From: Plumapathes pennacea
Taxonomy: Eukaryota; Cnidaria; Anthozoa; Antipatharia; Myriopathidae
Assembly: GCA_964036295.1 (NCBI GenBank)
Contig: OZ038463.1
Span: forward strand, 13,467,569-13,531,568
Reading direction: 5' to 3'
Length of the DNA: 64,000 nt
A model generated the notes under the pieces. It searched no databases. It was not told where the DNA came from and worked only from the letters and a program-made list of their open reading frames with translations. Of the stretch, positions 39,338-63,904 are shown in pieces. Both the position numbers and the translations under genes were made by a program. Numbering within the stretch: position 1 is the stretch's first letter; each line of letters starts with the position of its first letter.

Positions 39338-42300
39338 TTAAAGAGGGGATTGAATAAAAAAAGACGTCTGGCGTACCTGCAGTTCTTGGTGCCTTCTTTC
39401 TAAAGGGATTTCATCAATGTTCAGTTGTGAACCATCTGTGGGCCGCGAGAATGAAATGTCACAAATCTGGGAGGGAGCGTCTGGAGTGGTTCTTCGAAGT
39501 GCGCGGGAAAGGAGGAACTGTGACAAAGAACGCACACGATGAAATAAACCACAGAGCAACAACGACATCCAACCATGAAAATCATACAACACCTTGAAAA
39601 CCCAAAAACCTTTTAAAACGACTTAATCGTCAGTTTAGCGCGAAAGTACAGTCAACTCTAAGAAGGATACCGAAGGTGTCCGTTCCAGAGAGCCGTTAAC
39701 TGTAACTCCTAACCCAAGGCCTAAAATGCCTATAATGGCAAGAACGATATTCTCAAAATCAAATCTTATGATTGTATTAGCGAAGAGTTTAGAAGAATAA
39801 ATGTCATAAGTGAAAAACCAAATGATATACGGAGACTCAAAGACGGATGAATGGAGGGGAAGTGACAACCTCGTTCCCAGGCTCTTTCAACTCCCGGGAA
39901 CCGGGAGGTGAAAGAGCCTGAGAACGAAGTTGGGTAAGTGAGTTTGCTCGGTTATCAAACCTTATGCGCCCCAAGGAGCCCAAGCATTAGCGTTGCGGTT
40001 ACGTGGATAGCTGACACCTCAGATGCATATGTTATATCCGGGTTTGTGTAGTTTCTGGTGGCAATCCTGTGGAAAAAGGAAGGTCGACGCAAGAGGTGAA
40101 CTGAGCAGGTAGTGACGCATAAAGCACATAGTGGTGACGTGTATAGATTTATATATAATGAGATGCATAAGATACAATTTTAGGGGGAGGGGAGGGGTGG
40201 TGTTAAAAAAGGTTTTCCTTTCTCATTTCCCTTTTTCAATTTTCTGGACCAAGACTTCTGGTGGCTTTGCGGCTTGCGCTTCTGAGGTGCTTAACTTACC
40301 ACCGTGCTACCGACTCATGTTAGCGTAATGTGATAATTTAGCTAGTGATGAGTGATTGAAAAGGGAATAAAAGAGATGCAAATGTGAGGTAAGAATATTT
40401 TATTCTTTTGTCAAAGTCTACATGTCTTATAACTCCGCTTCCACCGGCTTCACTTTCAAACTTAGGTTTTTTAATTGTTTACGTAGTTCTTCTACGTGTT
40501 CCTGCTTTTACTTGTCATGTTTCTTGCATTTTCTGCTCTTTAGGACCCTAAGGGCGCGTTTGATTGGGTTTATTCCGGAATAGGAATAGCACCGTTGATC
40601 GGTAAAATTCTTTGGTTTGGAGCTGATTAGGGTTAGAATGAATTGGGAGCTGCTCAAAATGCAAGCATGAGGTTTTTAAAATAATTTCGAACAAAATCTC
40701 CCCCAGAACAGGCAAAACTTTGGATCATTTTAGCTATTCCTATTCCGGAATAAACTCAATCGAACGCACCCTAAGATACTATGCCCCCTCCCTGCACTGT
40801 ATAGATGAAGATATCGATGAGTGAATAAATCAAAGGCTCCTGTGAGCCAACTCGTGAATGAGAAACGCTAAAGATCTATCCTCTGTATATAGCATTGGAA
40901 AATACAGCATTGAAGCCATACACAAGTACTGTGATTTTAGCCAACGCTACGGTTCAAAAGTGCTAAAAAGCTTTCGATCGATCGAACTGTAAAAACCAGG
41001 TAAAGTCCGCAGTTCGGTCTTAATTTTTAAGAACATGTGCCTTGAGAATCAAAGGACATTAACAAAATTATCCTTGGATTTTACTCAAACTGGACACGTA
41101 CTGAATGTTTATGTGATAGAAAATTGGTGGGCAACATTATGTTGTTTTGTGTGGTAATCAGGTGCAAGGAAAAACTAAATTTGGAAATATTTGGCTTTTT
41201 GCTAATTTGGAGCTGTTGTCTCGGTCGCTGTTGATTGACAAGTGGCTCTCCATCAATATTTTCAATCGGCTTAATTCCGGGGGGGGGGGGGGGGGATATT
41301 AAGTGCTGTATCCGGACTATTATGGTAGAAACTGTGTGCGCTAAAGGCCAGGGCCTGGTTTTTCGAAAGCCGATTAAGCTAATCCAGGATTAACGAAATT
41401 CTTTCTGACACCTCTCTGCCGATAAAATGCAGGGTTTTGTTGAAATATGGATTAAAAAGCTTGTTTTAGCTGAAAATGTATCAAGGAAATCGTTGCAGGA
41501 CAAAATCTTCACATTTTCAGGCTTATAAATGACAAGAAAGTTTACACCTAATCCAGGATTAGCCTAATCGTGCTTTGAAAAACCGGGACCAGCGCTTTAG
41601 CTAAATAGCCTTACCCGAATGTACTCAGACAAGTGGCAAACATAGTGCAGTAAATGGCGATGGCGATGTACTTGCTCTCGTTGTACGCTGGAGGAACTTT
41701 TCGTACTCTGTTGCTCAACCACATTCCCCAAACGAGCAGTGAGATGTCACCTGCAAAATAAAGCCTTCATCTCTTCTTATTTGGTGTAACACTGTCTCAT
41801 GCCCTGCATGCACCGCGGAAATACGTTTTCCGTCTTGCAATTAACTCATTTTTTTGTCTCAGCGGTTAAAGCAAAACTGACTAAGTTTCGACTGAAGTAG
41901 ACTTGGAACGCTTGTTAAAACCTCCAGACTTGACAAGGATCGTAAGTGTGCTGCTAAAAGCAACCGAAAATGAAGAGCTAGCGATGCTTTCTTTTCAGGT
42001 TAAACATAGGCTTCGCAATAAATCGGAAAGAGCCACACTGGATAGTCGAGTCGACAATGTTTTAGCTCAGTATGGGATTAGCTCAGTACAGAATTCCCAA
42101 CGTCAAATTTCGATCTCCGTCAAAAGACAAGTTACTGAATGGACACAAAATGTTTTTATTTTCGAGAAGGTTAATCTAAAATCAGTCCAAAATGGCTTAG
42201 GCGCGATGTTAATGTATGACTTAATTCAATATTTTTTTGTAACATAAGTTGTGCATAGTATAAAGGAGCTTGCACGTGAGTGGGAAATTTGCATGCCTAA

Positions 42301-44061
42301 CCCCCACCTCCACCCCTCCTTCCCCAGCAGCACGTGACTAACCTGCGATAACTACTGCGTTATACCACGTGACAGTACACCGTGTATACTTGAGCCCGCT
42401 CACAGTGGTGGCAACTTCCAACTGAGGAGGCTGGGTAACCGCCCACACCGCCAGAAAACCAGCATACGAAAGTGTTATGGCCACGAGACGGCGAAACAGC
42501 AGCATGTCTGTCAGGAAAATCCTTTGTGCCGACCGAACGCGGAAGATCATCGATATTCTGGAGAGAGAAACACACACTGATTTGGTAGTCACAATCTTTA
42601 ATTTATCCACATTATCGTTTTCTTTCTCTTTTTTTATCTTGTTGTTCCATTTGACCTGCGTTCCCCTTGTTTGCTTTTTCTCGCATTATCTTTGTTGTTT
42701 GTTTGTTTGTTTGTTTGTTTGTTTGTTTCTTTACTTACTTGCTTGCTTACTTGGGAGGACCGTGATATTTGTTCAATTCTTCCTCGATCATTCTCTCATG
42801 GCTCAATTATCGCCAGAAAATAATCATAATGCCAAAACCATGCAAACAGTTAGCTTCTGCTGCTGTAATCCAGAAACCCCACATACTTGATTATCTTACA
42901 GAAAGGGGGTCAATTTAAATTTATCAAAGTTGTCTTACTTCTTCTTCTTCTTCTTCTTATCTTATGTATCTTTCTGTCTTCCGAGCCTTTTAGATTTGCC
43001 CAAAGGGACACTCAGAAATCAGAGTTAAAGAAATCAACATAGCTGTCAGTCATGGTGGCCACATGTGAACCAATATCCTTTCTTCACCTGGAAGTCATGT
43101 GACATACAGATAAATAGATAATGGAAATGTTACCTCCATGTTTTTAATGCAAGTGATCCGTAGGCCAATGCAAATCCAACATGGTACACAGACAGTTGTA
43201 GCATACAAAGAGTACTTGTTGGTTTAAGAAACAACACGATGACCTGCCGACACAACAGGTGTTAATACAGTAAATACTCCAATAAGCCCCCCCCTCTGCA
43301 AGGTCAAATTTGGAAATGAGCCCCACCCGATTTTTCGGATGACTGTTGGAAACCAAAACCAAATTAAAGTACACCACCAATCAGAAAACACATTCAACCA
43401 ATCAGAAGCCAAACTAATAATATTTGTGTTTGGTTTTACTCTTAACTGAGCGACCATTTATCATTACAAGGAAATGCCATCGACACTAATGATTTCTTTT
43501 GTGAGAATATCGAAATAAAGTTTCTTTTTTGTTCCTGATTGGCCTAGAATGTTGTAAACCTGGTTTGAACCATGTTGTAAAACTTGCTTGGACCAATCCG
43601 AAAGCGTAGGAAACACAAAACCCAAGCAGCTGACACAATTAATTTCGACAGTCATCTGATCAACAACTCTAGTTCAACCAAATAAGATAACGGCATGACT
43701 TTGTATTGCACTCATACTCACATTTTACCCTTACATCCTGGTTACAGTTTACAAAACACTTTACCTTGAGGTACATGAGCAAGGTTCCGAGAATAGTCAA
43801 CTCTAAAAAGCGTGGACTTGAGGCTTTAAAAATCTGCAAACAACAAATTTATGCAATAACATAAACATGAGGTTTCAGTGCACAAGAAGCCTCGCCTTCA
43901 GGCCAGTGATAACTTCATGATGTTGTCAATTCCCAAAACTAGTAGGCAATTGGACACCCTCCCCCCCACCCCCCATCCAGTTGCATTAATGGCTCAACTA
44001 GTTTTTTAACAGTAGTCTATAGTTTATAGTTTTGAAGGGGTTACCCTGTTGAATATTTATA

Positions 44062-44126
<65 letters not shown>

Positions 44127-44157
44127 GCTATTGTTATTGTGTTATTATCATTATTAC

Positions 44158-44206
<49 letters not shown>

Positions 44207-47200
44207 GTTGTTGTTATTATTATCATCATTATTAAGTATTAACTCATCTCTTGGACATGTTGCAGAGCTTACTTGAGTGGTCACACCTTTATAGGCTTCA
44301 AGATGATTCAAGAATTTCAATAAAGATATCTGTAGGCTTATGGCTTTACATGTATTTTGTCACGTTTGGAATGCACGCTTGTCGCGGTAGCTCGGACATG
44401 TTGGTATTCACTCTGTTTATAGTTGTGAAGTGTACATGACTATTCGTGAGAAGGTACGGTATATAAGGTCTGTTTCACAAGCAAGTGTCACTCGACGGCA
44501 TCTCTCGTTTACCTTCCGTCAACTATGACCGAAAAGGGCAGTGATTTTTCATTATTACACCCTGCACAAGGAAGCCAAGAAGAGAACGGCTTATCTGGTG
44601 AAGAAACGATAAACTTAATTTCCCGCCTCCTCGACTCAAAGCTTGACCAGAAGTTTACTCAGTTTCAACGCAGTCTCGAGCAGAAGGAGCTTGCGACTAC
44701 CTCTCAGATCAAGAAATTGAAAACAGAAGCGAAGGCTGCCAGCAGTTTTCAGTTCAAGGGAAACAAGTTGCAGTTTGAATTCAATTCGAGTTTGTTGGAC
44801 TCGGTTAACTCAGCGTCCGCTCATCTGCTGGAAGGCAACTTAACCGGAGTTAATCAAGAACTGGAAAACGCCAGAGCCTTGCTGAACAAGCGCAACAAAG
44901 CTATACGCTTTGCCGACAAGAGTCCGGCTGGTTGGACGGCGGTTGAAGAGTACGAATCCGACGGCTTAGCTGACGATTCAGAGGATGAAAAGAAACTTCG
45001 AGCAGCAGAAAGAAGGGCGCTTTCCAAGCTTCGTGGGCGTAAGTAATTTCGGAGTGCTGTTCAAAATCGTTTTGGGCTCCTCAGGATGCATTCCACGTGG
45101 CTGGTAACTCTAACTTCTGATGTTCTCACAAAACTTAAATTTTGGCACGAGCATTTGCAGAGCCTAAATTCTAGACCTATGTGGAGGAAACATCTCTTAC
45201 CTTCGCGAGTTGTTAGTTATTTCGACGCTAGTAAGGTGGGTTGTGCGGCCTTTATATGTATGAATGATAGTCCAGTTTCGCACAAAAACTGGGACGCGAT
45301 TGAAACACAACAAAGTTCCACAGGGAGAGAGCTTATGTCTGTCAAACACGCATTGCAGAGTTTTGCTGAAAGAAAACTATGTGAAGTGGTACACGGATAA
45401 CCAGGGCGTTGCTACTATTGTTAAGTCGGGCAGCACTAAGGCTCACCTGCATATACTCGCCATGGACATTTTTTGGCTTTCTAAGGAACACAATGTTATT
45501 ATCGATATTGAGTGGATTCCGCGTTCAGAGAATGAAGTTGCTGATTATTTGAGCAAGATTGTCGATTTCGACGACTGGAGTATCAAGGATTCGTATTTTC
45601 GGGCTGTTGATTCCACTTGGGGGCCCTTTACAGTCGACTGTTTTGCCATTTCCATTAATACTAAAGTTCCTAGGTTTTATTCGTTGTTTTATCAACCTGG
45701 TAGCTTGGGCGTAGACTCTCTTGCCTTCGATTGGGTTCAGGAAAATTGCTCATGCATTTTCTTAATTGTCACTCTCAAGGCGTTTTGGTCGTTCCGTTCT
45801 GGTCTTCGTCACTGTTTTAGTCTTATTTAATTCAGCAGAACGGCGCCTTTAGGAAATTTGTTGTTGACTATTTTTTCGTTGAAAATGGTAGCAGTGTTTT
45901 TGTTCAAGGCGCGAACAAGCAAACAATTTTTGGTTCGCCTTCCTTCAGTACTCCGGTGTTGTTTTTGAAATTCGATGCCACTCAAACTTCACTGGACCAC
46001 TGGGACAAAGCTTAATCTCAAAGCATTGTGTCCGCTGGGACAAAGAGCTTATTGTTTGCATCTCATTGGTCCACTGGGACCTTACGAATACTATAGGTCC
46101 ACTGGGACCTTGTACCTGGTGTTAATATTTTGGCACGTACATGCCGCAGTTTGTTGCAGAGGCAATTTGTTACGTTGTTAATGTACATGCTTTTACTTAT
46201 TTCTTTGTTTGCCTGTTTATCCTCACAAGGTGCAAGGGCTCCGTTGGCGTTTGCTGTATCCTTTAGGGATCCTGAATTTAGTTGTTTGGCAAGTTGTTTG
46301 CCTTTCCGTACTTTAGGAGCAAAAGCTGATTGAGGTAGTTTTGGATGCTTTTTCTCAGCTAGGTTTCTATCCCAAATTATTTGGTCTCCACAGTCTTAGA
46401 TCTGGAGGCGCTACTGCTGCTGCCAACGCAGGCGTTAATGATAGATTGTTTAAGCGCCATGGTCGGTTGCGATCTGATAAAGCTAAGGATGGTTACGTCA
46501 AGGATAGTTTAGGTGCCTTGCTTTCAGTTTCTAAAAGCTTGGAACTTTAGTGTGTTGTCCTTTCTCTTTCTTTATATTCGACAATGGGGGCGATAGTCTA
46601 GCTATCAATAAACGAGATGCCCATTCCTGATTCTTGTATGTTTGATGGTAATTAGTGTCAAAATGATTTGTTCTCGTTTCACTGCAGAGTGATTAGAGAA
46701 TAAATGTATTTTGTCACGTTTGGAATGCACGCTTGTCGCGGTAGCTCGGACATGTTGGTATTCACTCTGTTTATAGTTGTGAAGTGTACATGACTATTCG
46801 TGAGAAGGTACGGTATATAAGGTCTGTTTCACAAGCAAGTGTCACTCGACGGCATCTCTCGTTTACCTTCCGTCAAATTTCTTTAGTTTTGTTACGGTGT
46901 GCAAGTTAATCATTATTGCCCTTGTTAAAAATTACTATTGTGTGCCAGATATCAATGGATATTGTATTAGTCCTCATACATTGTTAAGTGGCTACTGTTT
47001 CACTGCCCATTATATTGTAAGCCTGGCTATCAATAAACGAGATGCCCATTCCTGATTCTTGTATGTTTGATGGTAATTAGTGTCAAAATGATTTGTTCTC
47101 GTTTCACTGCAGAGTGATTAGAGAATAACTTGTTTTTCCACTTTAGAAAGACAGACACTGCGAATCCCAAGGCTATAACAACACATACTCCCGTGATCAC

Positions 47201-48400
47201 CAGGAGCCCGAGCCACAAACCCTTGAACTCAGTGAAAACGCACGGGCTGTCGTCCACACACTCGATACAACCACGACTGCATCTCATGCACTCGAACCCG
47301 TGCTCGTAGAGGTTCGGCTCTTTACGGAAGAGTTTGTCATATTCCGATTCGACAATGCTGCCATTGAATGCCTTTACAGTGGAGTCTGGTGACGGAAAAT
47401 AGTAACCGCGCCTGCACTCACACACGTAGCTGCCACGTTTGAAGCCTTGCCCGCGAACAGGGACGCACTGTAAGGCAAAGTGCACAGAGAATGAACTGTT
47501 GATGGCAGCGCTGAGGAGTTTGCTTGTTTTCCATCATGTAAAACTCTCTATATTGACCTACACGATAGATACCGCAGAACGATTGCATCGCGGGCGCGCA
47601 AAGGTATCGCGCCCGCGATGCAGTTGTCCTGAGGTATCTTTCGTGTAGGTCAATATATAGTGTTTCACATGTTGGAAGCAAGCAAACTCCCCGGTGGAGC
47701 GCTAACGGAACAGATAGCAAGTTATATTTCTCTTTTTGCCATCACGTGACGTATTCACGAAACGGAAGGCCTGCAGCACTGATGCTAGAAATCAATAACA
47801 TTTCCCCTTCGTTCTGGAGTTCATCTGCTTTGTATAATTCTAAATTATACTGTTGAAGAAGAGGTTTAATTTTTAGCTGTTTTCAGTTGTCACGTGGACG
47901 TACCTCGCGCAACGTTGCTAAAGGAAAATTGTACAGTGGAAAACGTTTATAGTCCTGTGACATTTGTAAAATTGATTATAGAATAACTATGATACTACGC
48001 GCGTTCTAATTGGCTAAGAAACATTTTATAATATAAGTACAATGACATGGTTGCATGTTCTTACAGGTGTTAACGTTAAGTTATTTTATAAAATCAATAT
48101 GACACGCGTTTCCATGTCTATGTACTCTTATATAAACACTTGGGATGTTGTGAGAACATAAGAAAAAGTTCAAAATCTTGTTGTATGTTGAGATATAATT
48201 CCGAGATCCCTAACAGCCACCAAACCATTTAAGGTTGGATACGGGTAGTACCCTTTTAGACGCACCATATCACGTGACTCGTTACTACCAGAAACCTATT
48301 CAGACTCAAAATAGGGTTGCTCATATTTCGATAACATTGTCACTTATATTGTTCGTAGAACTGTGGTCGTGGTCCCACCGAAGTTTCTGTTTTGTTGTGA

Positions 48401-48435
<35 letters not shown>

Positions 48436-48833
48436 ACCTTAGTGGATGCCTTGCAGCGATGAGTTCCCAAGAATGCCTTCAACTGGTCACCGGTCTCCTT
48501 TCCGTTTGTTCTGACGTCTGATGAGCTGTGTGGGTCGCATTGGTTGATGTCAATATGACTGAGTATGATGTCAATACTGACAGTGCCACTGAAAATTATA
48601 AACAGCACATTGGTAAGCTGTGACACACAACATTGCTCTGTTTGTCTCAGTACGAAAACCACGTGAGACTCTGTGGCGCAATGGTAGCGCGTCTGACTCC
48701 AGATCAGAAGGCTGCGTGTTCGAGTCACGTCAGGGTCACTATAATTTTTCCGGGTCTGCAGTAATAACCGTTGTGGTGTCCCCGACTTCTTGCTCTTTTT
48801 GTTAAATCAAGCGAAGCAAAATAAATAATTACA

Positions 48834-48869
<36 letters not shown>

Positions 48870-51800
48870 ATAAATAAATAAATAAATAATATAAATAAAT
48901 AAATAGATAAATATATTGTTACATTTTTCCTCATATTTATTATTGTTACATTTTTCCATCACTGTTGATATTTGTATTTTTAGTTTTTGTCGGCACAAGT
49001 GGCACGTCCACTTGAATGTTTCTTTAACTGTCACTGTAGCACCCTCCTTTCTTTCACAATGTATAACTTAAGCCCTCTTTTTTTGTTCTGAAGACGACTT
49101 TCGTTTCAGTGCATTTTTCACCTGCAGTTTATAACGATCACAAAGATAACCAAGAAGCCGTAACTGTTTATTCATGCTGAAACATGCACCATTATATTAT
49201 GTCACATGACTAAAAACCACCTACTCCATTTAGACAGGTAGCCGTCACTTTAACTGAATTGGTACCTTCAAGTTAACCTGCCAGTTGATTGTTGATTGTC
49301 ATTTGTTTGCTTGTGTTCTCGCAGCATAAAAAATAAACTCCATCCTCTAAGGGCCTCTATGATTCGAATTCACTGATTAGAGCGGTTTTCGAATGACTGT
49401 CGAAAGTAATCGTGTGATTGCTTTGGTTTTGCTTTGGTTTTGCGTTTGCTTTGCAGTCTGATTGGTCGACAGAAAAAGGCGCGAGTCGTCGGCCAATCAG
49501 ACGTGAAAGTAACACCAATCGTGTGTTTGGTTTTACTCGTCATCATCACGAAAGAATTTTTTTCATTTTTTTTTTCCTTCCCTACAGTGCACATGTTGTG
49601 TTGTTTCGTTTCTTAGTTTCTGGTCATGTGAAAGGCGTCTGTATGTCGAGCTTTTGAGCTTTTTTTTGCCGTTGTTGTTCATCGACTCGGGTCGAGTCGT
49701 TTCGTCAAGTTAGCGGCGGACAAGCGTATTTCAAGCAGCTAAACATGTGGAGATCTCAACACGAACTGGAGAAACGGTTCACTGGCTAGCGAAGGACGAT
49801 GGCTTGGAGACAGAACCAGTTCGGTGGCGTTTACAAGAGAGGTTCTTCATATCCCATGCAGAAGCGCTACCAAATTGTTGCGTCCTACCTTGAAAGTGGC
49901 AGTCTAACCGAGGCTTCGGTAGCAAATATGTGCACTTACGACACTGCAAAATCTGTGACTTTGAAATTTCTAAACACCGGAAGCTTTGAACCCGGGAATA
50001 GAGGGTCTCCTCCGACGATCATGAACCCATGGAAAGTTGCATACCTTGAATCTCTGGTTTGCCACGACCCCTTCATGTACCTATCTGAAATGCAGCAGGC
50101 TCTTCAGGACGATCTACAATTGGAACATTTTGCAGTGCCCTCCATTCCCACCACCTGCAAAACTCTCCAGAGTTTAGACTTAACCCGATATAAAGCATCG
50201 AAAGTGCCGTTAGAAAGATTCACGGAAGTAAACATTGCCAGGCGCACTGCTTTTGTTAACTGGCGAAGATCTGTTGATCCCAGAAGGTTGTATTTCGTTG
50301 ACGAGACTGCAGTTCAATTGGCAGACGGAGTGAGAAGAATTGGGCGATGCCATACAAATCACAACCTCCCTCTAGTGACCAACAGAGCAGACGAAAGAGA
50401 GAAAATGTCAGTCCTCAGTGTGGTTGGATACGACGCGGGAGTACTGGACGCCTATCCAATTTATGGAAGCTTCAACAGAATTCAATTTAATGATGGTATG
50501 AACCAGCATTTTGTACATCTTATTCCTCGCGATTCTTACCTTGTAATGGATAATGCTTCAATTCATAACGAACGAGATTTGATCAACATGCTTGCACCAA
50601 ATAACATCACGCTCGTTAAATTACCACCGTATTCCTACGATTTTAATCCTATAGAACTGGTTTTTGGCATTGTTAAAAGCTATGTTCGTAGGTGGCCAGA
50701 GTTGCTGAGATCAAACACGCCATTAGCCATTGTGAACGCATTTGCTCAAGTCTCAGTAAACAGTGTAAGAAGATTTTATCACAAGTGCTGGCAAGTTGCA
50801 AGCTGAAACATATGTACATATATTTTGGTTGGACGAGCTCAATTTGCATGGCAATCTACCTGGTTTTTAAAATGCCTTTACAGTATTTTGTGAGCTCAAC
50901 CAAAAAACTGTCTTACAAAAGATATTTCAGAAATGGTGTGGTGTACAACGACAATGACATTTTATAAATATCCAGAAAGAATATGAATTTCTACAGTTAC
51001 TTTTCTCTGACAAAACTTTGACTTTAATCATTCTGCATTAAGAGAATTACAGTCATGCACAAAATTCCTGATGACAATAGACTATTTTTACAATTTCGTA
51101 CATTGTATGATTGTGACAGCTTGTGAACTACCAGTTATACAGAATGAAATATTTTATAGCCATGGTAACAACACAGACCCTTTTCCAGCTAAAAATTATT
51201 TGCATGCATATTTGCATTTTTAGATGACTGTCAATAGGATCAGTGAATAGTTTTGATTTTGCATTTGCTGTTTGGATTGGTTACACAAAATGTTGTGATG
51301 CAATGTACTTTCACTTGGCAAATGGTTTGAATCCAGGAGTCTCAACAGTTAATTTGTGATTGTCTGGGTGGTAGTCAGTAGTCTTCAGGAAGATTGGTCC
51401 TGTTGTCTGATGTGTTCACTACCTGAACAGAGGTCATCTTTGACTCTGACAACTTCTGCTCTGGTAGTCGAAGGCATCAGTCAACAGTAACAATCTTCCT
51501 GAGGACTACTGACTACCACCTGGACAATCACAATCAAAAAATATTTTACAGATTTCCATCAGATCAAAGGCTGGTGGTGGTGTCATAATAGTGGTCCAAC
51601 TTGTGAAATACACATGGCCCTTGATTTTCAACAGTCTTTTCAATCCACTTTGTTATTGCCTTTCACATGACCAGACACTTTAATTACTTGATGTCCTGTG
51701 TATCTACATGTATGTGCTAATGTATTTAAGCAGTGTCGTCTTTTTATATATTCAATAAATTTTGAAAACTAGAATAATAATCATTTAATTTCCTCTTTTG

Positions 51801-54096
51801 TCCTGAAAATGGCCCCCACTGATTTTGGTACAGAAAACAGTGGTCGTGTTTACAGTTATAAAGCACATAAAATTACTATAAATAGTCAAAGTTCCCAGTT
51901 TACAAATTACTGCCCAAGCCTCATCTTTTCCTGTGTGCAAAATTCCATACACAGCTCAATCTGAATTATTTGTTTGGAAAAATATTTACATTCAATGATA
52001 TTTACATTTGTACATTTAAAAACCATGCACAGTTCCTGAGCTGAAATATTCTGCTGGACCATTGGTAAATAAAACTATGACAAAGCACACAGTCAAACAC
52101 CACTGAGCCAAACGTGAAGGCCGATTTACACAGTGCAATTTTAGCTAAACAGTAACTGTTGATTGCATCAGTCAACAGCAACAGTCTGCCTGAAGACTAC
52201 TGACTAATACCCAGACAATCACATCCAATCATGTTTTTCAAAACAAAATCAAACACATTTCTATTTTTGGCATTTAATTGCAGACTGTGTCAGTGTAATA
52301 TACAATACATATGCAATAATGTGCAATGCCGGACATGTTTTTGCGTGGCGTTAGGCTGTCCGACGCGACCGCGTACAGATATACCAATTTTCGCGCGCTA
52401 AAATATCCCACGCCATCGGCGCGCTGTGCTGTTCCATCAACACAAACAAATCAGAGAACACACCTTTCCTTCGAAGATCAAGAATGTAATAGCCTATTTT
52501 CAACGCTGGCTCAGTCAGTTCCCGATCAGTTGCGAATAAAGTTCACGTCGATCAACACACTGGATCAAGCAAACATTCATCCTAGCGATTCATGCGGTAA
52601 AGAAATCATGCGATTTTCGACCCAGCTAAACGAAAAAGTATGTACTTACACTTCCAAGAGGCGTGAGATGTTAAAAGACGGAACAAAGTCTATGATTTCT
52701 CGACTGTGAAGTCAATTACTTTCACAACTTCAGTCGACAGGTACGGCGATCGCAGCGACTCCGTGAACGAAATAATGACTTGTAAGACAAACACCATAGC
52801 AACCTCTGCTTCAATCCACTTTATTCCAATTGGCATCATCGTGAATTGCAGAAGAATTACAAGCATTTCCATTTTCGAGACGAAATCAGCGACCCTCTTC
52901 CACTCGGCATTCCTTCGGACCTTCTCTGAGCGGCTCACGCCATACCTCGAACAGCTCGAGATTTCATTGGCTAGTAAACGCAAGTAAACACACGATTGCG
53001 TTTGCTCGCCTCTCTGATTGGTTAGTAAAACCAAAACCAAACCCGATGTATTGCGTTTGGTTTTGCTCGCACTTCTGATTGGTCGGACGTGTTTTTGCTC
53101 GCGTCTCTGATTGGCTTTGTGATTGCTTTGGTTTTGCTTTGGTTTTGGTTTTCGACAGTCATTCGAAAACCGCTCTAAACTCTGTCGGTCAGTCATAGTT
53201 AACTTGTATTATGTGGTGAAGTAACTATAAAAATGATTTTCTACTTACAGGAACTCGTTCGTCTCATTAAAAATGGGAGCGAGATAGGTGACCATCCAAA
53301 CCCTCCCACCAAAGCAGTCAAAGTACGGTCGGGTCCAAACACCGTCGTCAAACGCAACTAAGGGCAGTGTGACATTTATCGACCTGCTGCCAAAGTCTTC
53401 TTCTCGTCTCGGCATAGTAAAATAATCCGTCGTCTGCACTGTTGCATTCAATTTTGAGACTTTATTTGCGATGTCAGACCACCAAATGGCGTTCGCATCT
53501 GTCGCGTAGTCGTAACTGTCGACGGCCGCAATGTCGAAGACATGAAGTTTCCCGCCACGAGTTTTATCTCTGTATGCGTACGGGCAAAAGCGCGCGTAGT
53601 TTCGATACTGATTTGGCGCGAAACAGACGACAGAGCCAAAGATAGCCGGTGAAGACATGACATTCGCGCGGGCCAGATTAAAAAGAAATGTGGCATTGGA
53701 TGCGATCGAGAATCCATCTTGGCCTTTCACACGCCACAAGGCCGTAAGAAGATTTGCGGCTTGAACCGTTACCATCGCTTCCTTTTTCCAACGACTCCGG
53801 TCGAATGAAATGTTCAAAGCAGCAACCTCACTGCATCCTGTTCTATTGCGAAGTCGGCTCTCAACTTCTGCCACGTACTGTAATGCGATAATCAGTCTAT
53901 TCTTAAGGTTTTGATGATCCTCTTCTGATGATGCATCTCTTCTTTTGCGAACGTTGTGTATGATACGTGTTGAGCGGACAAGAGCCATAGCTTCAGCCGC
54001 TTCAGGAGCTCGAGTAGGATCTGTAGCGGCTCCTTGAACTTTTCCAAATGAAGAACTCCATAAGAGAAAAGTTGTTACTACTTGCTGAATCCGCAT
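39338..54096 (-). CDS. GPR158-like: GPR158/179-like class C GPCR, left paralog, interrupted at the exon 3 donor
   Basis: Exons (minus): 53249-54096, 48438-48588, 47129-47467, 43765-43833, 43134-43243, 42343-42557, 41615-41750, 39961-40066, and a last exon from 39517 running to a stop at 39338 or spliced at GTACGC (39376). With the stop at 39338 the frame is 717 residues. Signal peptide, then a Cache-type ectodomain with FCPYAYRD and WTRPYFDCFGG near the end of exon 1; exon 2 has IDINQCDP; exon 3 has the Cys-rich EGF-like part (GSYVCECRRGYYFP, CMRCSRGCIECVDDSPC) and TM1; exons 4-8 carry TM2-TM7 (e.g. RFLELTILG, GFALAYGSLALKTWR, VPPAYNESKYIAIAIY). The family includes the glycine receptor GPR158. 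A DIRS/Ngaro element occupies the exon 3/intron 3 junction, so the junction now reads AAG followed by TTATTC rather than a GT. Read-through gives about 32 foreign residues and a stop after TM1. Confidence 0.92.
40552..40771. mobile_element. PIF/Harbinger-like MITE, TAA target duplication
   Basis: Termini GGGCGCGTTTGATTGGG and its near reverse complement, each followed inward by TTTATTCCGGAATAGGAATAGC; flanked by TAA at 40549-40551 and 40772-40774. Second copy at 54405-54620. In the left receptor's intron 7. Confidence 0.8.
41351..41590. mobile_element. MITE with GGGCCTGGTTTTTCGAAAGC termini
   Basis: Long inverted ends, including a shared taatccaggatta block. It stops about 25 bp short of receptor exon 7 (41615), so it forms part of the donor-side intron sequence. 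Confidence 0.75.
44061..44235. repeat. (TTA)n microsatellite
   Basis: Interrupted TTA/ATT trinucleotide run in receptor intron 3, a little left of the Ngaro element. Long open frames here are repeat artefacts. Confidence 0.95.
44525..45046 (+). CDS. gag-like protein of the Ngaro element
   Basis: 173 residues starting just inside A1. Acidic and helical, with a coiled-coil-like stretch (TINLISRLLDSKLDQKFTQF) and a C-terminal charged tail. This is the usual first frame of DIRS/Ngaro elements; no zinc knuckle is present. It ends cleanly, but the reverse transcriptase frame that should follow is missing. Confidence 0.65.
   Translation: MTEKGSDFSLLHPAQGSQEENGLSGEETINLISRLLDSKLDQKFTQFQRSLEQKELATTSQIKKLKTEAKAASSFQFKGNKLQFEFNSSLLDSVNSASAHLLEGNLTGVNQELENARALLNKRNKAIRFADKSPAGWTAVEEYESDGLADDSEDEKKLRAAERRALSKLRGRK
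45086..45830 (+). pseudogene. RNase H remnant of the Ngaro element, frameshifted
   Basis: Two overlapping frames (45086-45400 and 45264-45830) together read like the RNase H part of a DIRS polyprotein: VVSYFDASKVGCAAF with its first Asp, STGRELMSVKHALQ with the Glu, then after a frameshift near 45365 YTDNQGVATIVKSGS and EWIPRSENEVADYLSK. The reverse transcriptase palm is not present upstream. Described as broken; no repaired version is offered. Confidence 0.7.
46341..46550 (+). pseudogene. tyrosine recombinase C-terminal fragment of the Ngaro element
   Basis: About 69 residues with the HSLRSGGATAAANAG box (HxxR catalytic motif) and a downstream YVKDSL with the likely nucleophile Tyr. The N-terminal half with the first catalytic Arg is missing or scrambled in 45830-46340, where degenerate copies of tccactgggacct occur. 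Confidence 0.7.
47513..47697. mobile_element. hairpin MITE with a GC-rich tip, left receptor intron 2
   Basis: Arms pair tattgacctacacga with tcgtgtaggtcaata and gcatcgcgggcgcg with cgcgcccgcgatgc; outer ends gagtttgcttg and caagcaaactc. It ends about 50 bp from the exon 3 acceptor. Confidence 0.8.
48402..48434. repeat. (TTG)n microsatellite next to a splice donor
   Basis: Eleven or so TTG units on the plus strand, (CAA)n in the receptor's sense, beginning within a few bases of the exon 2 donor at 48436-48437. Confidence 0.95.
48667..48738 (+). tRNA. tRNA-Trp (CCA)
   Basis: Seventy-two nucleotides fold as a cloverleaf: acceptor GACTCTG with CAGGGTC (one T-G wobble) and discriminator A738; D arm GCGC/GCGC; anticodon stem TCTGA/TCAGA with loop CTCCAGA, anticodon CCA; T arm GCGTG/CACGT. 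Box A TGGCGCAATGG and box B GTTCGAGTC are intact and a TTTTT terminator follows at about 48745. It lies antisense in intron 1 of the left receptor. The AAATA-repeat tail further 3' leaves open that it heads a SINE. Confidence 0.85.
48829..48912. repeat. (AAAT)n tract
   Basis: Tandem aaat units 90 bp downstream of the tRNA-Trp, possibly the tail of a tRNA-headed SINE. Confidence 0.85.
49378..53177 (+). mobile_element. TA-flanked Tc1/mariner superfamily transposon, 3.8 kb
   Basis: Terminal inverted repeats GAGCGGTTTTCGAATGACTG (left, from 49380) and their reverse complement ending at 53175, about 26 bp, both bordered by TA. Inside is an intact transposase at 49799-50806 and 2.3 kb of non-coding DNA with an internal inverted repeat at about 51355-51530. 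A 29-bp block (gtgattgctttggttttgct...) sits next to each TIR in direct, not inverted, orientation (49414 and 53119). It lies in intron 1 of the left receptor. Confidence 0.85.
49799..50806 (+). CDS. Tc1/IS630-type DDE transposase, intact
   Basis: 335 residues, uninterrupted. N-terminal paired-like helix-turn-helix (residues about 18-75, with YQIVASYLESGSLTEASVA and NTGSFEPGNRGSPP), then the RNase H-fold catalytic core: first Asp in YFVDETAVQ (about 170), second Asp in LVMDNASIHN, and Glu in LPPYSYDFNPIE with 34 residues between the last two, giving DD34E. Cuts and pastes the element at TA sites. All three acidic residues and the reading frame are kept, so it may be functional. Confidence 0.92.
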   Translation: MAWRQNQFGGVYKRGSSYPMQKRYQIVASYLESGSLTEASVANMCTYDTAKSVTLKFLNTGSFEPGNRGSPPTIMNPWKVAYLESLVCHDPFMYLSEMQQALQDDLQLEHFAVPSIPTTCKTLQSLDLTRYKASKVPLERFTEVNIARRTAFVNWRRSVDPRRLYFVDETAVQLADGVRRIGRCHTNHNLPLVTNRADEREKMSVLSVVGYDAGVLDAYPIYGSFNRIQFNDGMNQHFVHLIPRDSYLVMDNASIHNERDLINMLAPNNITLVKLPPYSYDFNPIELVFGIVKSYVRRWPELLRSNTPLAIVNAFAQVSVNSVRRFYHKCWQVAS

Positions 54097-54620: not shown

Positions 54621-54842
54621 GCTCAGTCAAACCACGCACACTACTAAACATTTATCTGCCGGAAAAACCCAACTAGTAATTCCTGTCATTTCCTTCCCCT
54701 GCCCTCCCACACACAGAAAAGAAATCTGAGAAACAAAAGATGGAAAATAGCACTGAGCACTGATTACATTTTACTATTATTTTATTCCAGGATCTTTCTG
54801 TAAAACACTTTCGGGTGAAGTAGGCCTCCTGAATAAAGACTA

Positions 54843-55024
<182 letters not shown>

Positions 55025-56488: not shown

Positions 56489-59400
56489 ATGTACGGGTTA
56501 TCAGGAACCGGGCACAGTGTGTGCTCTCTGGCACAGTCGTGGTGGTTTTTACTGCTAATCTGTCACGCACTGGTTTGTACGAATTCTCTGAGCCATGAGA
56601 GCCGATCAGAGGCTCAAGGACGGCAATCTTTACCTGCCGAGCAACTGCAGGCCGACAGTTTTATACATTCGCATCGTAGAATTCCAAAGTCCGCAGATCG
56701 TGGCGACGAGGTCCGCAAGGCTTTACAGCACGTTCAACAGGATGTTACCTCTGTTTGTGCGCATAAGAATCGTTCAGTTGTGTTGGACATAAGCCTCGAC
56801 AACAGCCGATGGAAAAGCGAGGCTCTTCTTGCAGTAGAAGTCGCTAATCTCCTTACATCCCTTTGGAGAATCAAAGCGCCTGATGGGAGATCACTAGCTG
56901 AGAACGACACACTTCTATACAAGCTCGTCAGATCTAACTTGCTCTTCTTACCGTCCGTTTTCGGCTCTGTAATTTGCTTCGAAAGAAATCAGTACCGTGA
57001 CTTCGAACGCTTTTGTCCATACGCCTACAGGGATCAAAAGCTGGATAGAAACATTCATGTAATCGATCTTTCGGTGGAGATCGATTACTTGACCAGCAAC
57101 GAGACAATATGGTGGCGGGAGCCGCGTAAGAAAGCGCTGAACTTGACGCCGGAGAAAATCACAGAGTTCTATTCTGTACGCTTGAACGCGAGCACAGCAG
57201 AGCAACGCAAGAACCACTCTACTCCTGTGGTGAGGTACAAGGATGGGTTTTGGACCAGACCCTATTTCGATTGCTTCGGAGGCAAAATTTGGATGGTGAC
57301 CTACTTGGCGCCGTTCTTCGACGAAACCGACAATTTCCTGTGAGTAATGGTTTAATGTTAAAGTAGATATTCACTTTGCGGTGTGTTTGTGTGATGGTGT
57401 TGTGTCTCTGTTCTTATAACTACGTTAGTTGCGGATTGTATTCTTGTGATCGTTAATTTTGTCTTATTTATAGCGCGTGGCTCGCTCACTCCATGATCCC
57501 CGCTTGGTCCGCACTCTATTTCCTAATGGGTCGCTCGCACGCGGCTGATCGAAGCGGCCCGGTCACTAATAATACTCGTTTGTTTTTATATACAAAGAAC
57601 TGCATACATAAAGATGAATAATTAATATTCGCCGTGCTGTCATCGTTAATTTCTCTTCTTGACATTAGAAGCCACGGTGCGATCAAAGATTTAGTTGTGG
57701 ATTTTTCGAACTTAATTTTGGGTGATGGTGACAATTTTCAGTTCCAAGTTTATAAACTTGGATGATTTTTTACGGTGTATAGGCATACTGTACGTATGTG
57801 TGTATGTGTGTGATATGCGTCGGAAAGCAGCGCGACCGTCGCCCCTTCGAACTCGCCCCCTCGAGAATTTATACAAGTGATTAGTTTATGGCTCTTTTTC
57901 AGTGATGTTCAGCCCAAAGCATTGGAAATATTGAAACCTAAATCTCCTTGCGGAAGCGTCTATGTGGGACTGATTGAAGAGTTCAGCTTATTGTATTATA
58001 TTCTAATCAATAAATACGTGCTCGCTATCTTTCTTGTTTCCGGCGTGTGTCACCAGGTCACTCGTGACAACGACTTTCTTATCTTTGAGATATATTTATT
58101 TTCGATGAGTCATCCGCAAAAGATAAGGAAATATTTCACTTTTTTCGCACGTTACTTAGTTCCAACTTTCGAGCCTGTGCGGCACCTGTAACAACAAAGC
58201 TCAGTGTCCTTTTTTTAACTCTTTTTATTCATCTTTTTTTTTAAACAACGTGGATCCTTACCACTAATTCCTCACCAGGAAATGTTAATAGAACCACTCT
58301 GACCTGTAGATGGCTGGTTTGTTAAGCCGACGTGGCAACTGAATGCCCCCCCCCCCCCCCCCGTCCCCCGGGGGGTACTCCTCAAAATTATGGGTGGGAG
58401 TGTGTCACCCGGGACTGAAAACCTTTACCCTATTTCAGACCAAAATGTGCGATTTTCGACCCTATTTCGGACCAAATATTAAAATCTCCGACCCTATTCC
58501 AGACCAAAGGTTCAAAATTGATACCCTATTTCAGATTAAATTGCTGAAAATGATACCCCTCCCCTTGCCGGGCTGAATGCCTCATGGGTTACTTTAGCCA
58601 AGTCCAAGCTTGAAGCGATACCAAACTTGCCAACAGGGTTTTTCAATTTAGGAGTTCTATTTTGCTTGACGCAATTACCTAACACGGCCAAACCTTGGTC
58701 AAACTGATAAATCGCTTATTATCTACATAGGACAAAGAGAATCCACAAGAATTATATTAGGCATGGCGTGGTGGTTTGGCAACCCCCATTATCTGTCATC
58801 ATATATCTTGAGGCAGTACAAATATTTCCCGACTGATTATTTTAAGACAATCGAAAGGACAGTTTTCAAGAATTGCGGAAAATTAGGCCCCCCCCCCCTT
58901 TTTTTTTCGAATCGTTTGTTTTATGTCAACATTCGACTCAATTCTGCCTGTAGTTTATGCACATTGAAACTGTTGTCATTTTCATTACCGAACAGGCTTC
59001 TTTATTTATCGCAAAACTTTGTAGACCCTGATGATTGTCGTATTTTGTGAGTTTAATTTTAATTTAATTTTAATTTTAAGGAAGAGTGATCGATGAGCTC
59101 TAATCACTTCAGCCTTAGTTGGCCTTCAGTTTAAAGGAATCAGTTGCCACTAACCTCTTAGCTTTACTTCTATTCATCTACAGTCAATTAGAATACAGCA
59201 AAACAAGTGCAGCATAAATTTTAAATATTAATCATGCATATTGTTAAATGTGACTACAGGTGAAGATGGTAAACATCTAAGTATTGAGGGTTAAATTAAG
59301 ACACACTAGCGGGACTCGTATAACTAAGGTGATCGGATTTACTTTTTCTTTTTTTTTTCCTAGTTTTTTTTTCTTTCTTTTCTTCTTTTGAAGTCCAGTT

Positions 59401-62400
59401 TGAGCATCTTGAAGTCAGGTTACAGTGTCAAAGTACAAACCATATGGGCTAGCAGGACGATGGCTCCAATTCAATTAATTATAAAGCGACCGTGAACTCG
59501 GTCTAAACGAACCTTGTAAAAAAATCAAGTGATGTACCTGGTGTTTGGTGGTTTTGAGCTAAAATCGTTTTTAACTGTGAACGGAAGTATAGTTTGAATT
59601 GAAATCGATACGAAGTATTAATGGCTAAACAACAGGACAATTTAGCTTCCCTTTGAGGTTTCCCTATTTAAAGGACAGCAACTTTTCAGGTTGTTGTACT
59701 GTCGGCGCTGTAGGATACATCTATTTCAATTTTTTGGAAATAATTACTTCCGAAGCATCGACGCAGGGTGTTATCACCTGCCTGCTAATCAGAATGTACG
59801 AACTTCTTCTCTTTCCTCTATTATTTACTACCAATCCGTCTTGAATCTGTAAATGTAAAGGGAAATATATTTTTTCAGTGAGGTTTGTACGCTCGTCTTT
59901 AATATGTTTGATCGAAAATAAACCTCACAGAAGGGATCGTATCGGACAATTGTTTTTCTCTGTGTTCTGTTTATCTTTCTTTCCTTATTTCCGGACTTTC
60001 TTTCGTAACTATCGGCAATCGAAAATTCTCATTTTAAGAAAAGAACTCGTGACTGAAGAAAAATAACGCATTGTTTCTTTTTCTGTGTGTGATCTCCGAC
60101 CTATAAGTAGCTTTTTCTTCACTGTATACATAACTTACATAAGGTCTCTCGATCGTTCCAGATAGCTCCTGGAGCAGACGTGAAAAACAATTGATGTTTA
60201 CATAAAAAAATAATAAAAAATAAACAGAAATACAACAGAATATTGTGCCATGACAAGCGACGGCAGCACGTGCTAACGAGGCTTGCGCATGCAATAAATA
60301 GTTATATTGTTATTAATATTAGTTTAAAATGGGTTGCTTTATTCTGTAGTTTGGCTGAGAAATAGATAAAAAGCAAACAACTAGTACGAATTCAACCAGC
60401 GTTTCTATATATTTGTGCTAAGTATAAACACAAGGTTTCATTGAAGAGGCGCCATTAGCAAACCCACAGGAAATGACGGTGAGCATGACTAAATATGGAG
60501 CTGATATATGTCGCTATAAATTATCAGTTGTCAGTCGTTTGCCCACACACTTTCTGAGCCCATGATCAATGAATTAGTGCATGCAAAGAGTCTGTTCTTT
60601 TTCCTTTATACCAATGTCTTGTTACTAAACTTCAGAATACAAAAATACATCCGGAAAATTAAGCTGAGGCTTTCTCTCTATTTATTGTCGGTGGGCTTTG
60701 TAAAGGCCTGCCAGCCCGTTTATCTTGGGTTTAGTGACACAGCTATACAAACCTGTCTGTCTATGTGTTACGACCAATGTAAAGCCAAGTTGATTGTTAG
60801 GCTGGTTTGTCAGGCAGCTCAGCAAATAGTCGCTTCTAAAGCTCTCAAGCTCCGGCTACGAAATGAAATGGTCATTCGAGCTGAGTTTTGATTTATTTTT
60901 ATTTTTTTAATCTGCTTTCGCAACTTGATACAAATGCATGTAATGCAATATAAAAATAGATACAGTCAAACCTCACTATTTCAAACTCGGTTAATTCGAA
61001 GTCCCCATTATTTCGAATCCCCGTGGATTTACTTTTTCAGTCATTTACTATCAGCTATTGCGAAACCCCGCTATTTCGAACTATTCCGTGCAGCTTCGAA
61101 ATAGCGGGGCTCGACTGTATTAGTTTTTATTTTTAATTTACTGGTATGCCATCAGTTCGTTACCCTGGGTTCCAGAGGTTTCTCGCTCTCGGAAGTTCCT
61201 GTGCGGCCGCGTAAGGCTGGGGGCGAAACCAAGGGCGGCGTAGGGCTGGGTTCACGGCCGCACCGGACCTTTCGAGAGCGAGAAACTTCTAGAAACCAGG
61301 GTATCTGTTCGTCGATCACATATGAAAACTTTTAGGCGCGGTTCCCAAAAGCCTGCTAAGAATGCGCAAGTACAATAGTTACCCTGTTTTTATATCCAGA
61401 CGGATGTCTGTAAACTTGGTCAACTGGAAATCTTGTGACTTGACGTGTCCAGATTTGAATAGGGCATGCATACAATAACAGCCCTTTCCCCAGACAGAGA
61501 ATGGACAACTTTGGACAAAGACCCATGCCGAACGTCGTTAATGGCCGCATGTCGCCTTCTATGATGCAAACCGCCTACGGAAGCCGCTACCAGCGTAGCT
61601 TGGTTGACCTTGGGTGTCACGTTCATTAACTGCAATTTACTACTCGTAAATGCTGTATATGCATGTTTACGTTTTTAAAAGCTGCATGTCGAAAAACGCC
61701 ATCCGTGAGCCGGTCACTGGCCTTATTTATAACTTAAATCGAAACGTTGGCGTTCCTAAACACGAGACAATTTTCCCTGCAATTTGTCTCGCAACGCTGA
61801 CGACAGCATATGTTTTAGGGTTATCGTTTTCAAGTATTTTACTCTGAAATAATGTATAATTGTTTCTGTTTTGGTCTGGAATAGGGTTTTACATTTCATC
61901 TGTTTTGGTATTCGATCCGAAATGGGATACATGTGTGAAATAGAGTGTAAATTTTGGGATACAGGTCTGAATTAGGTTGCAAATTTTGATGCAGTGGTAA
62001 GAAATAGGGTGCAAAATTTGGGCTACATTTGAAAAGTCTAAAAATCGTACAGTTTGCAATGAAATAGGGTAAGGGTTTTGAGAAGCTTGCGGCACAACCC
62101 CCACGCAAAACCCCGGGTTCTTTTTATTTCTTTTTTATGTTTTAATTTAACTGTCAGATGGTTGCTGAAGTCTTTGTTGTTTTACTACAGTGGCGTGGTC
62201 AGCATAGACATCGAACTAAGCGACGTGGACATCAACCAGTGCGATGGCAATACCTCTGCGCGAGGTTCTGGAGATTCTGAGGGGAGTGACAAGACCGGGA
62301 AGACAGACGAAGGAAAGCTGATGGAATTTCTTGGAACCCACCGGTGTAAAAAATCCACATTGGTAAGGAAACAGCAATCTTGACGCAATGAAATGTTGTG

Positions 62401-63904
62401 CAGTGCATACAATGTAATGTAGTGTAGTGTAGCATAATATAGTGAATGTAATGTAGTGAAGTGTGGTATTGTTGTGACTTCATCTTGGGGATGAGGGATG
62501 TCGGACGCGTAGCCTGCAATGCAGGCGTTCCCGTTTGTTTTCAGGCAAAATTCGTTCGTTCCCGTTCGCTTTCAGGCAAAATCCACTCGGTATTAGGACT
62601 GGAGCGAGCGCCACCTTTGTTCCAGTCCTACTCCCGAACGAATTTTGCCTGAAAACGAACGGGAACGCCTGCATTGCAGGCTATCGGACGCGTTGCACGG
62701 AGGGAGGAATGTGATGACATAACATTGATCATATATATTTTCCTTTGTTTTTATAGTGCGAGGCCATTCCAAACCAGGGCTTCAAACGCGGTAGCTACCT
62801 GTGCAAATGCAAACCTGGTTACTACTTCCCCAACCCGAAAGCAGCGATCAAAAAGTTCAACGGCTCCGTCATCGAAGCAGACCACGATAGCGCCCTTCAC
62901 AATAAACCGAACCGCGATGACTTCGAGTGTTTGAAGTGCAGCAAGGGTTGCACAGTTTGTGACAGTGACCGCCCGTGTGTCTACACTGGTCAGGACGTTT
63001 TATGGACATTTCTGCTTGTCTTCAACGGCTGCACGATAGTGCTATCTATTGTCTTTGGGATAGTGGTTTATATTCATCGTGAAAACAAGGTTGGATTTGG
63101 AGGAAGGGGTTAGGGCTATAGGAGGCGGCTTACGGTTTTAAACGTCACAACGGCTTTAAACGGTTTTCCATTGGCTTTCGAAAACCAAACCCAATCATAA
63201 AAGCTGCGAGACTTAAGAAATATATAACGCGTCACCGTGTAGTATAGCCTCATCTAAACACGCGGGAAGTTGGGAGAACACGAGAGTAGCGTAAGGAAAC
63301 CAGTAAGGAAACCACGAGGCCGCCGAGTGGTTTCCGGCGCTACTCGAGTGTTCTCCCAACTTCCCAAGTGTTTAGACGAGGCTATATTACACGGGAACAC
63401 GTTATATATTTCCTTTATAAAATAATTAGTCAAGTAAAAAACATCGCGTATCGCGTCAGCGTGTAATATACTCTCATCTAACACGGTTATTTAGCCAATC
63501 AGGGCGCGCGGAGTATCATAGTTATTTTATAAAACACTTTTAACTAACTGAAATCAAAGTAATTTGCGATTGGTTCGAAGACCTATTAGTCTCCAACAGT
63601 TGCGAGACTAAAGACCAATCAGTAGTGCGAGAAAACGTCATCGCCACTTGCCGGCTTGCCTTAGCAATCACGAACATCGTTTAGGGTGATCATGATATTT
63701 TACCACTTTTATTGCATTAATGTTGTTTGGCCTATTCAGGAGCCGTCAAAGGTTTTTGTGGCTCATTTAAGATCGTTAAATGGAATGAGCCGGGTGGGAT
63801 TTTAATGAATTTTGTATTTACACTTTGTATGGCAGATTTTTCACAGCGCAAGCGTTCTGTTCCTGGAGTTGGCTCTCGTTGGTGCAGTTCTGATGTTTAC
63901 TGCA
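56489..63904 (+). CDS. GPR158-like: GPR158/179-like class C GPCR, right paralog, 5' four exons (partial)
   Basis: Exons 56489-57339, 62191-62362, 62757-63089 and 63836-63904 join in phase for 475 codons; TM3 onward lies beyond the right edge. Start MYGLSGTGHS leads to a hydrophobic signal segment (WWFLLLICHALVC). The ectodomain mirrors the left gene: LDISLDNSRWKSEALLAVE, VFGSVICFERNQYRDFERF, CPYAYRD, WTRPYFDCFGGKIWMVTYL. Exon 2: GVVSIDIELSDVDINQCD. Exon 3: the Cys-rich EGF-like part (GSYLCKCKPGYYFP, CLKCSKGCTVCDSDRPC) and TM1. Exon 4: IFHSASVLFLELALVGAVLMF (TM2). Intron positions and phases match the left paralog exactly. Expected to be a plasma-membrane receptor for a small ligand, by family glycine-like; the ligand is inferred, not seen. 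The exon 3 donor (AAG/GTTGGA) is intact here. Confidence 0.93.
58343..58575. repeat. dispersed repeat with tandem gaccctatttcagacca units
   Basis: Five diverged units of about 30-35 bp after a poly-C/poly-G foldback. An inverted relative with tgaaatagggt units occurs at 61870-62115. Confidence 0.7.
60961..61119. mobile_element. pogo-like MITE
   Basis: TA-flanked, left TACAGTCAAACCTCACTATTTC, right GAAATAGCGGGGCTCGACTGTA in inverted orientation. Confidence 0.75.
61161..61303. mobile_element. hairpin MITE (taccctggg termini)
   Basis: taccctgggttccagaggtt and its near reverse complement at the other end, with tttctcgctctcg and gcggccg inside the arms. Confidence 0.7.
61870..62115. repeat. inverted relative of the gaccctatttc repeat
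   Basis: Repeated units such as ctggaatagggtttt, gtgtgaaatagagtg and gaaatagggtgcaaa, complementary in sense to 58343-58575. It ends about 75 bp before exon 2. Confidence 0.65.
62511..62682. mobile_element. Mutator-like foldback MITE with a 10-bp target duplication
   Basis: Arms of about 48 bp from AGCCTGCAATGCAGGCGTTC to its reverse complement ending GCAGGCT, flanked by TCGGACGCGT directly on the left and after one base on the right. Long TIRs with a 9-10 bp duplication suggest a MULE. In intron 2 of the right receptor, 75 bp before exon 3. Confidence 0.8.
63212..63531. mobile_element. foldback repeat, copy 2 of a two-copy family
   Basis: Same order of arms and tail as 32609-32920, with a short internal duplication (gtaaggaaacca twice). 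In intron 3 of the right receptor. Confidence 0.8.

Follow-up and report, generated by a model that had tools for sequence, protein, structure and literature searches.

A probable PAT-like retrotransposon insertion at the exon-3 splice donor of a GPR158/179-like receptor gene in the antipatharian coral Plumapathes pennacea

A retroelement copy of Plumapathes pennacea lies exactly between the last base of exon 3 of a class C receptor gene and the GT of the splice donor belonging to that exon. The stretch analysed, referred to here as the window, covers 64,000 nucleotides of contig C2 (C2:13467569-13531568) in the 290-Mb genome; feature positions are given in window coordinates and are collected in Table 1. 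The sequence supports the removal of the exon-3 donor by a recent retroelement insertion, exons 1-8 of the receptor being otherwise open. The preferred reading, with a probability of about 0.8, is that a PAT-like insertion recently split the donor and that this allele consequently yields no full-length 7TM receptor. The lesion itself is of an ordinary, well-known kind; its value is that of a clean natural allele.

Table 1 Features of the receptor locus, its neighbour and the inserted element (window coordinates)
Feature	Position	Strand	Remarks
Receptor exon 1	53249..54096	-	signal-peptide-like start (by eye); Cache/PDC: MCP-like_PDC_1 PF22673, 57.9 bits (cut-off 27)
Receptor exon 2	48438..48588	-	
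Receptor exon 3	47129..47467	-	Cys-rich stalk and TM1; 339 bp, phase 0-0, donor lost; GPR158_179_EC 31.6 bits (cut-off 28.1)
Receptor exon 4	43765..43833	-	
Receptor exon 5	43134..43243	-	
Receptor exon 6	42343..42557	-	7tm_3 18.7 bits, below cut-off 33.5
Receptor exon 7	41615..41750	-	7tm_3 34.8 bits (cut-off 33.5)
Receptor exon 8, TM7	39961..40066	-	
Neighbour paralog exons 1-4	56489-57339, 62191-62362, 62757-63089, 63836-63904	+	exons 5-8 past window; exon 8 ends at C2:13539304
Element interrupting exon-3 donor	44350..47128	own sense +, antisense to receptor	2,779 bp; copy of a PAT-like (probable) split-direct-repeat tyrosine-recombinase retrotransposon, internally deleted
Displaced host donor bases GTAAAG	44344..44349	-	host sequence resuming at 44349 after element
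Repeat A1	47020..47128	-	outer end, abuts exon 3
Repeat B1, internal	46704..46876	-	173/173 identical to B2
Repeat A2, internal	46595..46703	-	B1/A2 reproduces circle-type junction
Repeat B2	44350..44522	-	outer end, abuts host GTAAAG
Gag-like open frame	44450..45043	+	stops before the CCHC zinc knuckle known from longer relatives
RNase H remnant and start of Dam/methyltransferase-like domain	45264..45827	+	RVT_3 24.6 bits (cut-off 21.6); Dam 20.2 bits, below cut-off 28.1
Deletion point	45114..45115		1,146 bp absent relative to L042 (gag end and RT region)
Deletion point	46331..46332		682 bp absent relative to L042 (central recombinase region)
Stretch before weak in-frame GT	47108..47128	-	21 bp; GCA/GTGAAA, last exon base would be 47108; +7 residues

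Insertion site and element architecture

On the minus strand, exon 3 of the receptor ends ...AAAAACAAG at position 47129 and is followed directly by the element. Its placement between this exon and the GT of the donor, proposed in the initial annotation, proved right to the base, as did the loss of the donor with the element in place, every other splice site of exons 1-8 having the canonical GT and AG. There is no target duplication, and the empty site would read AAG/GTAAAG.

In the order of the gene strand, the element begins with TTATTC and ends with ACAT, and it is composed of A1 (109 bp), a spacer, B1 (173 bp), A2 (109 bp), the body and B2 (173 bp). The ends are fixed by the internal B1/A2 junction (46704/46703), since it reproduces the join of B2 to A1, the two being identical over 24 bp; the TTAT start and the ACAT end are also found in other copies, at unrelated places. 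A1 and A2 are identical at 107 of 109 positions. Concerning the coding remnants, the Gag-like frame gave no Pfam hit (one match only, E 0.16) and resembles, by inspection, the gag frames of two longer relatives, L042 and L053, whose zinc-knuckle region falls in the part missing from the window copy.

A sibling copy is present at C2:980475, at an unrelated site; it is 99.7% identical, 8 of the 2,780 aligned columns being different. Such a copy on the same contig might suggest that the insertion is an assembly artefact, i.e. a misplaced repeat copy; the two copies nevertheless have different flanks as well as the 8 differences, and both ends are precise at the receptor. This explanation is thus very unlikely, the near-identical copy lying on the same contig but at an unrelated position.

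An empty copy of the locus was not found in the assembly, either by the nucleotide search (best 40 of 399 candidates scored) or by the exon-3 protein search (4/4 scored), the latter recovering the receptor locus once. Exon 3 with its upstream flank has a full match only to itself among the matches listed, the other 82 corresponding to a palindromic repeat at query positions 5-195, in the intron. This repeat (window 47508-47690, intron 2) is found on either strand at numerous genomic positions and is probably a small inverted-repeat element. Since the assembly offers one haploid sequence only, the insertion may be rare or heterozygous.

The receptor gene and its paralogs

The eight receptor exons, leading from the N-terminus to the last membrane helix, comprise 658 codons without a stop, TM1 corresponding to residues 419-437. 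The domain content—a Cache/PDC domain, the Cys-rich GPR158_179_EC segment and 7tm_3 helices—is shared with GPR158 and GPR179, members of class C (GPR158 being also the metabotropic glycine receptor), and on that basis the product is classified as a GPR158/179-like class C receptor. The relationship is a distant one: the best solved-structure (PDB) matches of exon 6 are weak (GPR179, E 0.051; GPR158, E 0.35), and exon 1 alone matches the bacterial sensor protein 3lic (E 5.6e-11), not GPR158/179. The exon 1 frame scored 18.3 bits with GPR158_179_EC, i.e. below the cut-off of 28.1, and exon 8 alone gave no Pfam hit.

A neighbour paralog lies in divergent orientation and has the same eight exons, the end phases being 2,0,0,0,2,1,2,0 in both genes. 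The intact neighbour invoked in the initial annotation is indeed present: it is open over the same exons 1-8, its 666 codons containing no stop, and shares 278/632 aligned residues (44%) with the receptor. A third, more distant locus is situated on contig C10 (32% identity over 189 residues of exon 1 and 40% over 106 residues of exon 3), so that the exon searches, with 4/4 candidates scored in each, found three such loci in the genome. At the homologous exon-3 boundary, the neighbour reads AAG/GTTGGA, as had been annotated, and the C10 gene AAG/GTAAGG; AAG/GT is therefore seen in 2/2 paralogs.

The receptor and its neighbour differ at the end of TM7, where the former reads GLLGAHK and the latter LLVFLPK. 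The GAHK end is a possible sign of drift or of changed function; as the TM7 exon lacks both the FLPK end and a Pfam hit of its own, the gene may have drifted before the insertion took place. A receptor that was already decaying, with an insertion of no consequence of its own, would be consistent with this end and with the neighbour being open over the same exons. It is nonetheless considered improbable, because exons 1-8 contain no stop, frameshift or broken splice site apart from the insertion.

Other features were seen in the same region. Intron 1 of the receptor contains a tRNA-Trp (cca) gene on the opposite strand (window 48667-48739, plus strand), approximately 80 bp upstream of exon 2, and an open frame of 338 amino acids (49790-50803, plus strand) with a DDE_3 transposase domain (65.7 bits) and, at the N-terminus of the frame, weak similarity to a paired box (19.3 bits against a cut-off of 22). 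Long arrays of (TAT)n occur twice, at 44060-44234, just downstream of the insertion in the direction of the gene, and at 54841-55023.

Family, age and target sites of the element

Ngaro insertions occur without target duplication, and the present element shares this property with them, together with split direct repeats and a tyrosine recombinase. The Ngaro label given in the initial annotation is not supported, owing to a methyltransferase-like domain that exceeds the Pfam cut-off in the longer relative L042. A CCHC zinc knuckle (zf-CCHC) is encoded by both L042 and L053, along with a reverse transcriptase (RT, 56 bits), RNase H and, following them, a Dam/methyltransferase-like domain. The match to Dam (PF05869) reaches 30.2 bits in L042, over the cut-off of 28.1, with partial coverage of the model (9-80 of 169); the corresponding match in L053 amounts to 24.6 bits, so that L042 alone is above the cut-off. 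As for the recombinase, L053:3401-4315, i.e. 305 residues of a 379-residue open frame, matches Cre recombinase chains (E 9.5e-05), Phage_integrase of Pfam remaining under its cut-off on this frame (16.8 bits versus 27.1); the search with the split frames of L042 gave weak unrelated matches or none. In the relatives, the tyrosine recombinase has the same orientation as the other element genes, and the internal pair of the split direct repeats is positioned downstream of it.

According to an excerpt of the literature, a methyltransferase domain separates DIRS/PAT from Ngaro and a zinc finger is carried by Pat1-like elements (PMC4157794); Ngaro elements are given without a methyltransferase-like domain in an excerpt of another source (PMC9210276), whereas at least one relative of the window copy has this domain above the cut-off. 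Since the longer relatives carry the methyltransferase-like domain along with the CCHC zinc finger, the element is probably PAT-like (Pat1-like) and not Ngaro. With the PAT-like, or Pat1-like, form of echinoderms within the order DIRS, as outlined in excerpts of PMC4157794 and PMC6681497, it has in common the split direct repeats, the internal repeats downstream of the recombinase and the same-strand recombinase, its longer relatives sharing in addition the CCHC zinc knuckle in Gag, RT, RNase H and the methyltransferase-like domain. The window copy differs from that form in being internally deleted, with no RT core and with a broken recombinase, and the assignment is made here by repeats and domains, the methyltransferase-like match covering only a part of its model.

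With regard to age, the A and B repeats should be almost identical at the time of insertion, as stated in an excerpt of PMC6681497, and the identity of B1 and B2 over 173 bp agrees with a recent event, as does the closeness of the sibling copy (8 of 2,780 columns different); the insertion thus looks recent. The divergence between A1 and A2 was rejected as a clock, because the sibling copy has the same two differences, which are therefore inherited.

Among the A1-B1 units (best 40 of 120 candidates scored, the counts being lower bounds), a listed A2 match comes after 6, and the other 34 lack one; these 34 look like solo units, possibly originating from recombination between B1 and B2. Solo A1-spacer-B1 units of approximately 425 bp represent the commonest family form seen (34/40 scored); they comprise L011, L014-L025, L027-L038 and L044-L052, and nearly all those examined share the ends of the full copies, the exceptions being L029 and L030. 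In L042, another A-repeat piece (positions 955-1060; 106 bp, 99%) directly adjoins the end of B2, as if two units had been joined at the circle-type junction.

For the target sites, 30 independent sites were retained from the 37 listed, seven having been left out: L022, L027, L046 and L050 as judged duplicates, L029 and L030 for their altered ends (L030 being also a duplicate), and L042, whose right-hand flank consists of element sequence. None of the longer copies L003-L008, L012, L013 and L026 entered the set of target sites. T is found in the right flank at +1 in 19/30 sites and at +2 in 17/30, and A in the left flank at -7 in 17/30. Compared with the element's own junction, the sites have a mean of 8.17 matches out of 24, as against 6.61 for random nearby positions, the observed value having been reached in none of 2000 draws. 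GT at the right flank is found at just one of the 30 sites, the receptor site. The idea that the element seeks splice donors, the exact placement being then a result of targeting, would draw on this one receptor site and is extremely unlikely in view of that count and of the preference seen, the favoured DNA being similar to the junction of the element itself. With only 1/30 sites starting with GT, the exact placement at the donor is best read as chance.

Predicted splicing and consequences for the allele

The preferred reading would involve an internally deleted member of the PAT-like family whose recent integration separated exon 3 from the GT that opens the intron. The copy was probably mobilised by proteins of longer relatives, since it is already internally deleted, and a circle-type intermediate may have been joined to the target without duplication. 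The donor AAG/GTAAAG, expected to bind U1, would thereby be split by the element, and because of this, transcripts should mostly skip exon 3 or read into the element.

Donors were scored with a human weight matrix, the host being a coral. With this human matrix, the rejoined AAG/GTAAAG scores 2.80, which corresponds to the 97.7th percentile of all GT of the window on both strands, and the remaining donors of the two genes range from 0.18 to 6.52 (12/15 scored, the set leaving aside the donors of exons 2 and 8 in the receptor and of exon 8 in the neighbour). Between 47175 and 47020 there are seven GT sites, with scores of -3.59 to -10.22 under the human matrix; four are in frame, of which two belong to the TM1 part of exon 3 and the other two to the element. 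The GT one base before the junction (CAA/GTTATT; -4.11 with the human matrix) shifts the frame, as the initial annotation held, and leads to a stop after 455 residues. GT sites scoring up to 8.29 exist in the element, but beyond the in-frame stop.

Exon-3 skipping would be in frame, exon 3 being 339 bp long with phase 0-0; the product over exons 1-8 would retain 545 of 658 residues without a stop, having lost the 113 residues 334-446, TM1 among them. The alternative transcript would read into the element and stop at a TGA after 32 extra residues, the product being expected to be degraded or truncated. Concerning the splicing outcome outlined in the initial annotation, its read-through of about 32 residues is correct, and what it missed are exon-3 skipping and the in-frame GT located 21 bp inside the element.

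The latter GT might provide a partial rescue: its use at GCA/GTGAAA would add LFSNHSA to the first intracellular loop, so that the allele would be altered and not null. In favour of this, the seven residues keep the frame, giving 665 amino acids over exons 1-8 without a stop, and a real donor of the neighbour likewise has GCA before GT (GCA/GTAAGT). The site, although the best of the seven, scores only -3.59 with the human matrix, which places it at the 67th percentile of window GT and below all 12 donors scored; such a rescue is consequently regarded as quite unlikely. A broader possibility, also an unlikely one, is that the allele is not null but remodelled, a stable variant—either without the stalk and TM1 or with a first intracellular loop enlarged by the seven residues from the element—being kept beside the intact neighbour.

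The mouse mutation T-Wis offers a comparison, since an ETn element there sits in the exon-7 splice donor of the T gene, 5/8 transcripts skipping exons and 4 containing element sequence (PMC6466679, excerpt). In both cases a retroelement lies within a splice donor and runs antisense to the gene (PMC6466679, same excerpt), exon skipping and element-containing transcripts being expected. They differ in the class of the element and in the gene; transcripts are described for T-Wis, whereas the present case is one of sequence alone.

Returning to the donor split by a PAT-like insertion, a full-length receptor from this allele is unlikely on the evidence of the sequence. The 'natural knockout' of the initial annotation, and the 'buffering' by the neighbour suggested with it, are inferences.

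The finding represents a precisely mapped and apparently recent disruption of a GPR158/179-like receptor in a genome in which three such loci were found, and it suggests that the PAT-like family has moved recently in this lineage. Should the insertion be polymorphic, the comparison of carriers with non-carriers would be a natural test of the role of the receptor and of compensation by its neighbour.
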